A program made the translations under genes and the position numbers. A DNA stretch of 42,581 bases from Acidobacteriota bacterium. GTDB taxonomy: Bacteria > Acidobacteriota > Terriglobia > Bryobacterales > Bryobacteraceae. Where the stretch lies: positions 1 through 42,581 of the forward strand of contig CANIVU010000079.1 of the NCBI GenBank assembly GCA_947470805.1, read 5' to 3'. How positions within the stretch are numbered: position 1 is the first letter of the stretch; the number at the start of each line of letters is the position of its first letter. The notes under the pieces are model-generated. The model searched no databases. It saw only the letters and a program-made list of their open reading frames with translations, and was not told where the DNA came from. Positions 12,234-17,073 of the stretch are shown here, in pieces.

Positions 12234-12725
12234 ATGGGCCGAAGAGCCGCCCTCGCTGCCGTGCTGTACCTCGTCAGCGCGGTGCTGCTGCTGAACGTGG
12301 CCGTCGACCGGATCCTGAGCGCATTCTGGAACGAGTCGATCCCGATACTGCAGTCAGCCGGAAAACTCCACTCCGTGAGAGATTCGATAGCCGACCACAG
12401 CCCACCCATAGAGCTGTTCTACCCGGTGTTCCTGGTTGCGCTGTTGCTCAACGTACCCGTTGCCGCAGTACTGTTCCGCCGCTGGCTGCCCCTGCGGAGT
12501 AGCGCGCTCTTCGTCATTGGCGCTGTCATGGGGCACGTCCTCATCTACCCTTGGCTGCTGCGCAACGTGGCGGCTCCGGTAATGATTCCGCTACCACCTA
12601 TCCACATCTATCAACTCAACGCCGCATCGGTTCTCGGCGCAGCCGTGCTCGCCGCCGTGTGCGGCTACCTCCGCCCGCCTCACTCCGCCGTGTTGACCCA
12701 CACCGCGAGCGCCTCCCGATCGTGA
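12234..12725 (+). CDS. Membrane protein of unknown function
   Basis: A protein of 163 residues starting 5 bases after the PfkB stop, so probably co-transcribed. Four hydrophobic stretches are seen: ALAAVLYLVSAVLLLNVAV, FYPVFLVALLLNVPVAAVLF, SALFVIGAVMGHVLIYPWLL and SVLGAAVLAAVCGYL. No family recognised. The last 46 bases overlap the end of the convergent gene at 12680. Confidence 0.65.
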   Translation: MGRRAALAAVLYLVSAVLLLNVAVDRILSAFWNESIPILQSAGKLHSVRDSIADHSPPIELFYPVFLVALLLNVPVAAVLFRRWLPLRSSALFVIGAVMGHVLIYPWLLRNVAAPVMIPLPPIHIYQLNAASVLGAAVLAAVCGYLRPPHSAVLTHTASASRS

Positions 12726-13300
12726 GCAGGCACAAACACCGCCTCCACTTGCGCGGCCAGCCGTTCTGACTCCGCCAACCCCACCGGATCATCGCCCCGC
12801 AGCCGCTCCACATCGCGCTCAGCCAGCGGCAGCAGCGCCACCACGCCCTGCCACCACGCGCACTCCGCCAACGCCTCCCGCAACACCGCGTCGCCATCCG
12901 CCACCGATACAAATCCGCAAAATCCTTCCACCCATTCCCTACGCACGCCCCCATCCCAAGTTGCCATTAGCGACGGCCGGAAACGGAACACCGGAAACGC
13001 AAACGGCCCCGATTCTTCCCACAGTTCAAGCACGGCAAACCGCGCGCGATCCGCGGCGAGGTAGTCGCGCACCCGCTCCTCCAGAAACGCCGTCAGCCCA
13101 CCATCAACCCCAAACCCGCCGCTCTGCTCCCCCAGATCCGCCAACGTCCCGTCCGCCACCCCCTCCGGCCCCGCCACCATCACCCGCCCGCCACACCGGA
13201 CCAACGGCGCCAACACGCCCGACCATAAGTCGCCCATCCTCTCCAAATACTCGGCCACATACGCCGATCCACCACGCTGGGCAGAAACCACTTTGATCAC
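12680..13300 (-). CDS. Conserved-looking soluble protein, unknown function
   Basis: A protein of 206 residues from a GTG at 13300. The stop codon of the gene upstream is embedded in TAGGAGGT, a near-perfect ribosome site, although its spacing to the GTG (about 12 bases) is long. No signal peptide or membrane span is visible; the protein is rich in acidic residues and Trp (FAVLELWEESGPFAFPVF, AECAWWQGVVALLPL). I do not recognise a family. It forms a two-gene operon with the membrane gene at 13317-13874, divergent from the HU/TIR locus. Confidence 0.65.
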   Translation of the reverse strand: MIKVVSAQRGGSAYVAEYLERMGDLWSGVLAPLVRCGGRVMVAGPEGVADGTLADLGEQSGGFGVDGGLTAFLEERVRDYLAADRARFAVLELWEESGPFAFPVFRFRPSLMATWDGGVRREWVEGFCGFVSVADGDAVLREALAECAWWQGVVALLPLAERDVERLRGDDPVGLAESERLAAQVEAVFVPAHDREALAVWVNTAE

Positions 13301-13316
13301 CCCGCCAATATACCTC

Positions 13317-13874
13317 CTACCGAACCGCCTGCCCCAACTCCCGCAACCGGTTCTCCGCCTCCTGCTGCCGCAACCCCTTCGGATACGCCGCCAGATACCG
13401 CTTCAAATTCGCTACCTCCTTCGCCGTATTCCCGGGCGCGAACTTCTGCAACTCCTTCCAAAGACAGATGTCCTGAAACCCCGCCACCTCCTCGCCGTAT
13501 GGCCCCTTCCCGTACTTCTCCACATACCCAGGCAAAATCTCACAGTTGCCTTGCTGGATCCGTTCCCAATTCGCCTTCTGCGCCTCCCGCTTCCGGTCCT
13601 CGGACTCCCTGGTTATAATGCGCAACGGCATAAAACAGAAAAACACCACGGCACATACCAGCATCACGATGTGTTTCCCCTCTAGTTCCCCCAGCGTCTT
13701 CCACCGCTCCGCCACAATCCCCAACAGCGCCCACGCCACCGCCGGCCCCCAGAACACCCGGACAAACTCCCCCACCGCCCCAAACCCGATGATGAAAATC
13801 GAACCCAGTCCCAGCACCGAACCCAGGAACACACTCGCTGCAATCCACAACGTAAACGGCAAGCTCCGACCCAT
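13317..13874 (-). CDS. Membrane-anchored protein with helical C-terminal tail, unknown
   Basis: A protein of 185 residues. The ATG at 13874 is chosen because GGAGGTG lies about 9 bases upstream; the frame is open to another ATG at 13916. Three hydrophobic spans (PFTLWIAASVFLGSVLGLGSIFIIGFG, VFWGPAVAWALLGIVA, IVMLVCAVVFFCFM) are followed by a charged, TPR-like helical tail (residues about 100-185) ending NLKRYLAAYPKGLRQQEAENRLRELGQ. No family recognised. It heads a two-gene reverse operon and shares its upstream region, including the 22-bp repeat, with the HU/TIR genes. Confidence 0.65.
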   Translation of the reverse strand: MGRSLPFTLWIAASVFLGSVLGLGSIFIIGFGAVGEFVRVFWGPAVAWALLGIVAERWKTLGELEGKHIVMLVCAVVFFCFMPLRIITRESEDRKREAQKANWERIQQGNCEILPGYVEKYGKGPYGEEVAGFQDICLWKELQKFAPGNTAKEVANLKRYLAAYPKGLRQQEAENRLRELGQAVR

Positions 13875-13950
13875 GAAAAAGACACCTCCATTTACGAATG
13901 CGCAGTAGCCATCCATCCTGGGTCACCCCCAAAAACACGCATTTTTGCCC

Positions 13951-14086: not shown

Positions 14087-14302
14087 ATGAAACAGTCCGC
14101 CTTCATCCGCCGCTTCGCCCGGGCAACCGGCGTTACGCCCGCTGCCGCTGCTGATCAGCTTGATCACATCGTGGCGAACATCGTCGGCCGCCTTCGCCGC
14201 GGCCAATCCGCGAAAATTCCGGGTCTGGGAGCCTTCCCTGCCGGCGATCGAAGCCAATTCGATTTTGCAAAAGACACGAAAACCAGGAAAGGACCTCAAT
14301 GA
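14087..14302 (+). CDS. Short HU/IHF-like protein
   Basis: A protein of 71 residues. The sequence FIRRFARATGVTPAAAADQLDHIVANIVGRLRRGQSAKIPGLGAF follows the N-terminal half of HU/IHF proteins (two helices, then the G..v.ipGfG.F strand turn). HU is normally about 90 residues; the long DNA-embracing beta-arm is missing, so it may dimerise or bind partners rather than wrap DNA (inference). AAGGTG lies 2 bases before the ATG. Its stop codon overlaps the start of the HU-like/TIR gene (ATGA, 14299-14302), so the two are co-translated and likely act together. Confidence 0.8.
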   Translation: MKQSAFIRRFARATGVTPAAAADQLDHIVANIVGRLRRGQSAKIPGLGAFPAGDRSQFDFAKDTKTRKGPQ

Positions 14303-14845
14303 ATCGCGCCACCATGGACGAACTGGCCCGCATCCTGCGCCAGTGCCTGTCCGAAGGCCGCCGCGTCGAAATCGACGGCCTCGGAACCTTCCGCGCCGCC
14401 GGGGGGGGATTTTCACTTTGTCCCGAACAACCGCCGTCGCGTGTTCCTCGCCTACGCCGCCGAGGATGCCGCCAAGGTCGATCAACTCTACGACGCGCTC
14501 GCCGCTCGCGGCTTCGAACCGTGGATGGACCGCCGAAAACTGCTGCCCGGCCAAAACTGGCCGCGCGCCATCGAACGCGCCATCCGTGCGTCCGATTTCT
14601 TCGTGCCCTGTTTTTCCAATCTGTCCGGTGAAAAACGCGGCCGCTTCCATGCCGAACTGCGCTACGCGCTCGATTGCGCGCTCAACCAGCCGCTCGACGG
14701 GGTCTACATCGTTCCCGCGCGCCTGGAAGAGTGCCCCATCCCGCGCCAGATACAGGATCAACTCCAGTACGTCGACCTCTTCCCGGACTTCGACGCCGGG
14801 GTCGACCGCATGACCGAGTCGATGCTCCGCCGCAAGCCCGGCTAG
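14299..14845 (+). CDS. HU-like/TIR fusion protein, frame broken at a G8 run
   Basis: Read from the ATG at 14299, the frame gives LARILRQCLSEGRRVEIDGLGTF, a short HU-like strand-turn, then reaches eight G at 14401-14408, shifts and stops at 14631 (110 residues). Dropping one G continues it as GGDFHFVPNNRRRVFLAYAAED and on through a complete TIR domain: RVFLAYAAEDAAKV, ALAARGFEPWMD, LLPGQNWPRAIERAI, SDFFVPCFS, then HAELRYALD with the candidate catalytic Glu at 14654-14656, and QYVDLFPD, ending at 14845 (about 181 residues). Bacterial TIR domains commonly consume NAD or make signalling nucleotides in phage defence. The break may be a sequencing error, phase variation or slippage; an internal GTG at 14441 could also start a TIR-only product. 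Confidence 0.8.
14401..14408 (+). repeat. Mononucleotide run of eight G inside the HU-like/TIR gene
   Basis: Eight consecutive G preceded by GCCGCC. The full HU-like/TIR frame needs seven (or ten) G here. Such runs are prone to slippage in replication, transcription and sequencing. Confidence 0.95.
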
Positions 14846-14846
14846 C

Positions 14847-15224
14847 CTAGAGCTTCTTCTTGATCAACTCCACGTTCTTCGCATCGGGCGCCAATTCGAG
14901 GTACTTCGCGTAAGCCTCCTTGGCGCCTTTCATATCCTTGCGTTTCTCCAACGATTCGCCTAAACGCAACCACGCCTCGGGCAGTCCCGGATTCCACTTC
15001 GTGGCTTCCCGAAACCGGAAGGCCGCCGCCTTGAAGTTCCCCTTCTTGGCATAGAAGTTGCCGGTCTTCACTTCCTTCTCCGCCTGCAACGGATTGAAGA
15101 CGTACTCTTTGGCTTCCACCAATGTGGTGTCTTCCTCCGGTGGCTCCTGAGAGACCGCCGGGGGCTTCTGTGCGAAGAGCGCGAAGGACATCAAAAAGAG
15201 GGAAAGGCAAACACCGCGTGCCAC
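14847..15224 (-). CDS. Exported TPR-repeat protein
   Basis: A protein of 125 residues from the GTG at 15224, which opens a signal peptide (ARGVCLSLFLMSFALFAQ). The mature part has an acidic Pro-rich stretch, then two TPR-like repeats: FYAKKGNFKAAAFRFREATKWNPGLPEAWLRLGESLEKRKDMKGAKEAYAKYLELAPDA, described by its G/A/P spacing. TPRs mediate protein contacts; likely periplasmic or outer-membrane associated. The frame extends to 15311 but that part overlaps uvrC and lacks a signal. A TATAAT box sits 6 bases before the GTG, pointing to a leaderless transcript. It converges with the TIR gene, one base apart. Confidence 0.82.
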   Translation of the reverse strand: MARGVCLSLFLMSFALFAQKPPAVSQEPPEEDTTLVEAKEYVFNPLQAEKEVKTGNFYAKKGNFKAAAFRFREATKWNPGLPEAWLRLGESLEKRKDMKGAKEAYAKYLELAPDAKNVELIKKKL

Positions 15225-15230
15225 AATTGA

Positions 15231-15236
15231 ATTATA
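15231..15236 (-). promoter_or_regulatory. Perfect -10 box (TATAAT) for leaderless TPR gene
   Basis: TATAAT on the reverse strand ends 6 bases before the GTG start at 15224; the expected transcript start coincides with the start codon. The uvrC gene starts divergently 29 bases from the GTG. Confidence 0.5.
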
Positions 15237-15252
15237 GCGCCGGGCCGTGTTT

Positions 15253-17073
15253 ATGGACTTAAAAGACAAAGTTTCGCAGTTACCGCTGTTACCGGGCGTG
15301 TACCTGTACAAGGACGGCCACGGCGAAGTGCTCTACGTCGGCAAGGCCAAAAACCTGCGCGCCCGCGTCCGGAACTACTTCACCGAAGAGGCTCTCGCCA
15401 GCGCAAAAAACGGCACGATGATCAGTGTCGCCCGCGACATTGACTACATCGTCGTCGACAACGAAAAGGAAGCGCTCGCCCTCGAAAACTCGCTCATCAA
15501 GCAGTACAAGCCGCGCTTCAACATCCTCCTCCGCGACGACAAAACCTACCCCTACATCAAGGTCACCGCCGAAAAGTTCCCCCGCGTCTTCGTCACCCGC
15601 CGCCTGCGCAAAGACGGCGGCACCTACTACGGCCCCTACTTCCCCGGTAACCTCGCCTACCGCCTCGTCGACTTCATCCACCGCCACTTCAAAATCCCCT
15701 CCTGCAAAGTCGACCTCACCAAGCTCCACCCCAACCCCTGCCTGCAGTACCACATCCACCGCTGCCTCGGCCCCTGCGCTGCCGGGCTCACCACGGATTT
15801 TGAATACGCCGCCGCCATCGCCAACGTTCGCCTCTTCCTGGACGGCCGCCTAAAGGATCTGTCTAAACAGCTCCGGCAACGCATGGAGGCCGCCTCCGAA
15901 GACCTTCGCTTCGAAGAGGCCGCGGCCCTCCGAGACGTGATTCAAACCGTCGACGAAATCGAGGACCGCCAGAAGATGGCCGCCGCCTCCGGTGACGACG
16001 TCGACATCTACGCTTACTACGCCGAACCGCCGCTACTCGCCGTCAATCTCTTCCACCTCCGCAACGGCCGCATCGTCGACCGCCGCGAGTTCTACTGGGA
16101 AGACCAAAACGACTTCCACCCTTCGGAATTCATGGCCGCGCTCATCAAGCAGGTCTATCTCTCCCAGACCTACATTCCCGCCATCATCCACGTCCCCGCC
16201 GACTTCGACGACCGCGAAGCGCTCGAAGAGTTGCTCACCGAAAAGAAGGGGCGCAAAGTCGAAATCCACACCCCACAGCGCGGCCAAAAAAAGGCGCTCT
16301 ACGACCTCGCGGAAACCAATGCCAAACACTGCTTCGACGCCCGCTTCCGCGTTCTGAAGCCGTCATCGAAAGCCATCCTCGCCGCTTTTGAAGACGCCAC
16401 CACCGTCCCGCTCAACCCCGCCCGCATCGAGTGTTTCGACATCTCGCACGTCCAGGGCACCGACAAAGTCGCAAGCATGGTCGTCTGGGAAGACGGCCGC
16501 ATGAAAAAGGCGGACTACCGCAAGTTCATCATCAAAACCGTCGAAGGCAACGACGACTTCGCCTCCATGCGCGAAGTGGTCACCCGCCGCTACACGCGCA
16601 TCCGCGACGAAGGCGGCAAGATGCCCGGTCTGGTATTGATCGACGGCGGGCTCGGCCAACTCCACGCCGCCGCGGCAGCGCTTGAGTCCATCGGCATCAC
16701 CGACCAGCCTCTGGCCTCCATCGCCAAGCGGGAAGAGTGGATCTACGTCTACGGCAGCGAAGAGGAGCCCATCATCCTCGACCGTTTCAACCCTGTTCTC
16801 CACCTCGTCCAAACCGTCCGCGACGAAGCCCACCGCTTCGCCGTCACCTTCCATCGGAACAAGCGGGACTCCAGCCGCCTCCGCAGCCAGCTGCTGGAAA
16901 TCGAAGGCGTTGGCCCCAAGACTGTCGAAAAACTCCTGAAAACGCTAGGCAGCGTCGAACGCGTCCGCACCGCCAGCGACGAGGATCTGATCCGCGAAGT
17001 CGGCCCCGCAACGGCCCAGCGCATCCGCCAGCACTTTGAAAAATTACTGCCCGCGGGCCAAACGCTCAGCTAA
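15253..17073 (+). CDS. uvrC: UvrABC excinuclease subunit C
   Basis: A protein of 606 residues, the normal UvrC length. Domains in order: GIY-YIG nuclease (LPGVYLYKD, VLYVGKAKNLRARVRNYF) making the 3' incision; the four-cysteine cluster region (SCKVDLTKLHPNPCLQYH, HRCLGPC); the UvrB-binding UVR helix hairpin near 205-240 (DLRFEEAAALRD); the RNase H-like 5' incision domain (ECFDISHVQGTDKVAS, LVLIDGGLGQLHAA); and C-terminal helix-hairpin-helix motifs (LEIEGVGPKTVEKLL, REVGPATAQRI). It acts in cytoplasmic nucleotide excision repair with UvrA and UvrB, which are not in this window. ATG 15253 preferred to GTG 15247. Its end overlaps the convergent phosphoesterase by 30 bases. Confidence 0.97.
   Translation: MDLKDKVSQLPLLPGVYLYKDGHGEVLYVGKAKNLRARVRNYFTEEALASAKNGTMISVARDIDYIVVDNEKEALALENSLIKQYKPRFNILLRDDKTYPYIKVTAEKFPRVFVTRRLRKDGGTYYGPYFPGNLAYRLVDFIHRHFKIPSCKVDLTKLHPNPCLQYHIHRCLGPCAAGLTTDFEYAAAIANVRLFLDGRLKDLSKQLRQRMEAASEDLRFEEAAALRDVIQTVDEIEDRQKMAAASGDDVDIYAYYAEPPLLAVNLFHLRNGRIVDRREFYWEDQNDFHPSEFMAALIKQVYLSQTYIPAIIHVPADFDDREALEELLTEKKGRKVEIHTPQRGQKKALYDLAETNAKHCFDARFRVLKPSSKAILAAFEDATTVPLNPARIECFDISHVQGTDKVASMVVWEDGRMKKADYRKFIIKTVEGNDDFASMREVVTRRYTRIRDEGGKMPGLVLIDGGLGQLHAAAAALESIGITDQPLASIAKREEWIYVYGSEEEPIILDRFNPVLHLVQTVRDEAHRFAVTFHRNKRDSSRLRSQLLEIEGVGPKTVEKLLKTLGSVERVRTASDEDLIREVGPATAQRIRQHFEKLLPAGQTLS

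Follow-up and report, generated by a model that had tools for sequence, protein, structure and literature searches.

Bacterial TIR proteins have mostly been studied as patchy, transferable immune effectors. Among the described systems, the short-Argonaute TIR-APAZ system SPARTA (8isy, 8i87, 8ifk) resembles the locus reported here in its TIR domain, with an aligned catalytic Glu, and in its two-gene organization, with the TIR protein under the control of a partner, such control by HU being only proposed for the present pair. However, the present pair contains neither an Argonaute nor an APAZ domain, its partner is a short HU-like protein, and its inheritance is near-core. The TIR part of Thoeris ThsB/ThcB and of other TIR defence proteins also matches the TIR of the pair; however, the latter falls far under the NCBIfam cut-off (32.3 vs. 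220 bits for ThcB4), and the distribution of the pair is not patchy. On the HU side, both HU pieces match the HU/IHF superfamily, including HU-HIG and HU-CCDC81_bac_2, some of them only below the cut-off. In contrast to the members of this superfamily, the short HU ends ahead of the arm and the last helix, and the second piece (half-HU) is also devoid of the first helix and is fused to the TIR domain. PADLOC returned only generic TIR matches, no ThsA-like gene was seen among the recurring neighbours annotated, and assignment to a known named defence system was rejected based on PADLOC and the NCBIfam profiles. A keyword search of titles and abstract openings found no published HU-TIR pair; the Burroughs 2017 HU survey, which possibly mentions such fusions, lay outside this search. 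The TIR and HU folds are both known, and the pair may be a novel combination of them.

The window, i.e., the whole stretch of 42,581 nucleotides that was analysed, from a Bryobacteraceae genome (GCA_947470805.1), carries a short, arm-less HU-like gene of 71 aa (gene 1) at 14087..14302 on the + strand. Its product matches Pfam Bac_DNA_binding over residues 1–56 (E 1.8e-5, above the cut-off), scores 17.9 bits against HU-HIG, under the cut-off of 26.2, and shows a dN/dS of 0.15 between the window and its relative L002. The stop codon of gene 1 and the start codon of gene 2 share an ATGA overlap at 14299..14302 (+). The half-HU piece of gene 2 follows at 14299..14408 (+), and its best Pfam match is HU-HIG (PF18291, E 1.7e-4), at 22.1 bits likewise under the curated cut-off. 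The TIR domain (TIR_2) lies at 14408..14845 (+), is complete (E 9.4e-27, 94.4 bits vs. a cut-off of 28), and is the only TIR_2 match in the genome of the window. The sequence-only reading had described a short HU-like protein, its coupling to a second gene by the ATGA overlap, and HU similarity in both products, all of which were recovered here. It had also described the second protein as one HU-like piece joined to a complete TIR domain; both parts are indeed present, yet in the window they are split between two reading frames.

The ATG at 14299 opens a frame of 110 aa that ends at 14631, while the TIR domain is read in another frame, so that the window itself does not encode the half-HU and the TIR as one protein. 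The two frames diverge within eight consecutive G at 14401..14408 (+). In the four closest relatives (L002–L005), the G run found here differs in length and is interrupted, and there is only one frame. The TIR codons of the window are strongly constrained relative to L002 (dN/dS 0.045), suggesting that the frame break is recent, or is an assembly or sequencing error. A conserved mechanism of phase variation at this site was considered and rejected, since L002–L005 are without such a run and keep one frame. The run is one of four homopolymers of at least eight in the 42.6-kb window and sits at the half-HU/TIR junction.

The gene pair is real, and it is clearer in the relatives than in the window. 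Scanning genome contigs at the protein level yielded 88 sequences related to the TIR part, the best 80 of which were kept; nearly all of these carry labels of Acidobacteria groups (Bryobacterales, Bryobacteraceae, Solibacter, Terriglobia and similar). A few are labelled as other organisms, among them L023, L050 and L075, which are probably mislabelled, and L081, labelled Nevskia soli. All 80 relatives encode the half-HU and the TIR in one open frame, and 78 of them span nearly the whole fusion profile; the remaining two are L036, which is truncated where its contig stops, and L076, which is interrupted by an internal gap that stays in frame. In L076 (3435–4046) the HU-TIR frame is open and profile positions 33–63, from the half-HU to mid-TIR, are absent, which may reflect a decaying copy or an assembly flaw. 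The short-HU profile found a short HU directly upstream in 78/80 relatives, and L033 and L036 are without a measurable HU because the contig ends there. A second set of 120 family genomes comprised 118 from the listed places of fusion matches plus G005 and G008, mainly from genera with several members; it overlaps the first set, the two together giving 138 distinct pairs. The fusion frame is open end to end in 120/120 of these genomes, a figure that is partly selection, as they were chosen for a good fusion match. This choice favours open fusions and not HU presence, which was no selection criterion, and in 120/120 of them a short HU lies within 40 nt upstream of the fusion. The expected adjacency of the HU gene and the HU/TIR gene was thus observed in both sets, rather than a TIR gene without the HU-like gene in most genomes.

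The short HU, with a median length of 69 aa over the 138 distinct pairs, carries the HU body as judged from sequence, by the Bac_DNA_binding match above the cut-off together with a match of its family profile (A2) to HU-beta, the best solved chain (E 3.1e-9, chain residues 1–61). Most other solved HU chains aligned to this profile from their first residue only to residue 54–66, and the Pfam match ends at residue 56 against a profile of 90 positions, leaving the DNA-embracing beta-arm and the last helix without a counterpart. Because most of these matches stop at residue 54–66, the short HU appears to be largely without the DNA-gripping arm and last helix. When modelled alone, the short HU gave a poor model (pLDDT 62). 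The genome of the window (G000) has three full-length HU genes besides gene 1 (C6:78053-78322, C33:54973-55233 and C46:55772-56041), which are possible further partners of the short HU.

The fusion protein is 181 aa long in L002 and has a median length of 191 aa, comprising the half-HU plus the TIR. In the AlphaFold2 model of L002 gene 2 (pLDDT 84.9), the half-HU consists of H3-18, E23-25, E29-34 and E37-42, followed by the TIR domain; on this model, the half-HU would appear to be one helix and three strands, the arm and helices 1 and 3 of HU being absent. It is homologous to the short HU, with a profile–profile E of 1.5e-9 over 40 columns. The homology of the pair to HU, together with the basic character of the short HU (positive net charge in 136/138, median +6), could be explained if the pair were a nucleoid or transcription factor in which the TIR is merely an assembly domain. 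However, the DNA-gripping arm appears to be missing from both pieces, the half-HU is not basic (median net charge −1 over the 138 distinct pairs), and the catalytic position of the TIR is kept, all of which render such a factor very improbable.

That catalytic position is E119 of the fusion, which is Glu in 137 of the 138 distinct proteins, with Asp in the remaining one, and aligns with Glu77 of the SPARTA TIR chain 8ifk. The catalytic Glu at the conserved helix position of TIR NADases is kept in this alignment and marks a predicted active site. In PMC10474274, E77A is the catalytic mutant of a TIR-APAZ, which may be the same protein as the 8ifk chain, and TIR assembly is reported to be needed for NADase activity. 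Compared with solved chains by sequence, the TIR is nearest to TIR domain-containing proteins including the SPARTA chains (best E 1.2e-7, 8ifk E 3.4e-7). By fold, the best Foldseek match of the L002 fusion model is Crt-SPARTA 8isy (E 3.1e-6), and other TIR domains are among the best matches.

These nearest solved relatives, by sequence and by fold, include TIR-APAZ NADases that are immune effectors, which is consistent with a fixed antiphage immunity, i.e., a chromosomal and vertically inherited HU/HU-TIR complex that would sense phage DNA or nucleoid damage and deplete NAD so as to halt infection. HU-HIG being the best Pfam match of the half-HU points in the same direction, as clades of the HU superfamily were reportedly proposed to recognise invading elements. 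On balance, this immune role is considered unlikely in view of the distribution and surroundings of the pair.

The fusion profile was matched in 188 of 237 genomes of the family Bryobacteraceae (E 1e-25 or better), mostly in single copy, with at least four of the 188 (G062, G117, G242 and G250) matching only through their TIR part or as fragments. Among family genomes of good quality, 123/148 match. The remaining 49 of the 237, including 25 of the 148 good-quality ones, gave no match, and so the gene can be lost, or can be missed in incomplete assemblies. In a phylum-wide draw, 14 of 396 genomes matched the profile at 1e-15, three of which are family members; two of these three matches extend into the half-HU, and the third is the window's own genome, in which the match stops short of the half-HU because of its frame break. 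No HU-TIR match outside the family was found in this draw, as the other eleven matches start at profile position 37 or later and are TIR without half-HU. At an E of 1e-8 or better, the short HU is present in 34/41 drawn family genomes, all 34 being among the fusion-profile matches; the seven without it have no fusion match, G117 having a TIR without the half-HU. In G117 (C1:5974374-5974781), the TIR match (E 2.9e-42) lies in a 412-aa frame with neither a half-HU nor an HU pair, perhaps a related TIR of another architecture. No short HU was found in 20 genomes from two other families of the order. In a chosen set, a strong HU match occurs in 6/6 genomes with the fusion vs. 0/13 genomes lacking it, among which the best E was 0.002 and two assemblies fall short of 85% completeness.

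A maximum-likelihood tree of 120 proteins requires 28 changes for 29 genus labels, which is the minimum (shuffled mean 94), in a test that addresses clustering by genus labels only; one genus, g72, does not form a clade, as g54 is nested within it. Among plasmid records, 12 match, all at less than 60 percent identity and at most at 44 percent among the eight matches listed, and no match was found among phage records. The pair is apparently inherited with the chromosome and near-core in the family, unlike a mobile defence module.

As judged from the neighbours annotated, the surroundings of the pair are those of an ordinary chromosomal locus. A TPR-repeat protein gene, recognized by TPR Pfam matches, lies convergently at 14847..15311 (−), outside the unit, and a relative of it is in the locus in 30 of the 76 relatives whose sequence extends 1.5 kb or more downstream. 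It is followed by uvrC at 15247..17073 (+), also outside the unit and identified from UvrC domains in the ORF of the same cluster in L009; uvrC lies within 2.5 kb downstream in 28/76 relatives. The other recurring neighbours, annotated in nine representatives, are phosphoesterases, a TonB-type barrel, an Rrf2 regulator and a PfkB kinase, and no conserved downstream effector or sensor gene beside the pair stood out among these recurring neighbours. Upstream in the window are two adjacent divergent genes at 12680-13300 and 13317-13916 (−), for which Pfam, NCBIfam and PADLOC gave no significant match. Each was found in only 1/80 relatives' loci (13 of the 80 loci have less than 2.5 kb before the TIR), and the two genes were consequently rejected as parts of the unit; because each occurs in one locus of 80, they are perhaps a local insertion beside the pair.

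The sequence-only reading had proposed the locus as a candidate defence system, to be sought near defence islands, and had noted divergent genes that share its promoter region. The divergent genes do not recur, and the neighbours annotated are not those of a defence island. The near-core, mostly single-copy presence, the clustering of the tree by genus, the recurring uvrC/TPR neighbourhood, the distant plasmid matches and lack of phage matches, and the generic PADLOC result all argue against defence, including the fixed antiphage immunity described above. Because the gene looks fixed and vertical, an endogenous role in stress or cell fate is favoured over mobile defence.

How the HU could act on the TIR is suggested by the relation between the two HU pieces. 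HU subunits normally dimerise, and HU–HU partner control, raised from the sequence alone, fits the homology of the two pieces. As for DNA-linked sensing, which was raised in the same way and would be speculative, both pieces appear to be devoid of the arm with which HU holds DNA. Coevolution leans the same way and is weak. In a direct coupling analysis of the 138 pairs, HU to half-HU scores lie above HU to TIR scores, and the mean excess was reached in 0/41 within-genus shuffles, in which the 18 pairs without a genus label stayed unshuffled. When the inter-protein pairs were ranked by score, the half-HU share among the first 20, 40 and 80 was reached in 1, 1 and 9 of the 41 shuffles, respectively, and an entropy-matched control gave 26/43 positive columns, which is marginal (p 0.02). 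However, the single best inter-protein coupling score is not above the shuffles, and on 77 pairs the coevolution is indistinguishable from shared ancestry, so the signal between HU and half-HU is no more than suggestive.

Based on these observations, the following mechanism is proposed. Gene 1 would supply a short HU body that lacks the arm for gripping DNA, and gene 2 the other HU-body piece, with neither first helix nor arm, joined to the TIR enzyme. The two pieces would pair as HU subunits do when they dimerise, and this putative heterodimer would determine how the TIR domains are arranged. If the complex changed, the TIR domains could assemble, upon which NAD would be cleaved or turned into a signal. 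A vertically inherited, near-core two-protein TIR switch, controlled by the pairing of two arm-less HU pieces, is therefore a plausible reading that is held tentatively. More specifically, the pair could be a housekeeping TIR, i.e., a family-wide NAD-signalling switch with a split, arm-less HU heterodimer as its gate and a role in the cell's own physiology (stress, damage or cell fate) rather than in mobile phage defence, a proposal that is possible and somewhat doubtful. The weak coevolution, the poor model of the short HU, the absence of a match in 49/237 family genomes and the lack of a conspicuous conserved effector or sensor gene among the annotated downstream neighbours speak against the two-protein TIR switch.

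The spacing of the two genes bears on a related explanation, in which the short HU, as the first product of a translationally coupled pair, would silence a growth-stopping TIR protein in the manner of an antitoxin. A gap of −4 is the commonest, in 25 of the 77 measured relatives and 42 of the 120 family genomes, and an overlap of 8 nt is the second commonest (24/77). In the relatives, 75/77 gaps fall within 30 nt and 77/77 within 38 nt, with start codons in both sets chosen by script for their proximity to the stop of the HU gene, a rule that biases towards short gaps; no start codon of L076 fitted it, and this relative was excluded from the gap counts as well as from A1 and A2. In all measured pairs (77 and 120), the small gene comes first and the two genes overlap or lie no more than 40 nt apart, which, together with the co-presence of the HU and the fusion, would suit an antitoxin–toxin arrangement. 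However, the clustering by genus and the single-copy, near-core status are unlike mobile toxin–antitoxin modules, and this rather unlikely arrangement overlaps with the TIR switch, the HU controlling the TIR in both. The endogenous role of the switch is accordingly our first choice, with fixed immunity ranked second, an inhibitor–toxin pair third and a purely structural TIR fourth.

For this soil family, the analysis points to a TIR that vertical descent has apparently fixed in many genera and that has a mini-HU as its dedicated partner. Since the family has single-contig genomes with the pair (G159 and G160), a native system in which to test it may exist. The pair thus raises the questions of whether bacterial TIR domains have jobs outside mobile defence and whether an arm-less HU fold may have been reused as an assembly switch.
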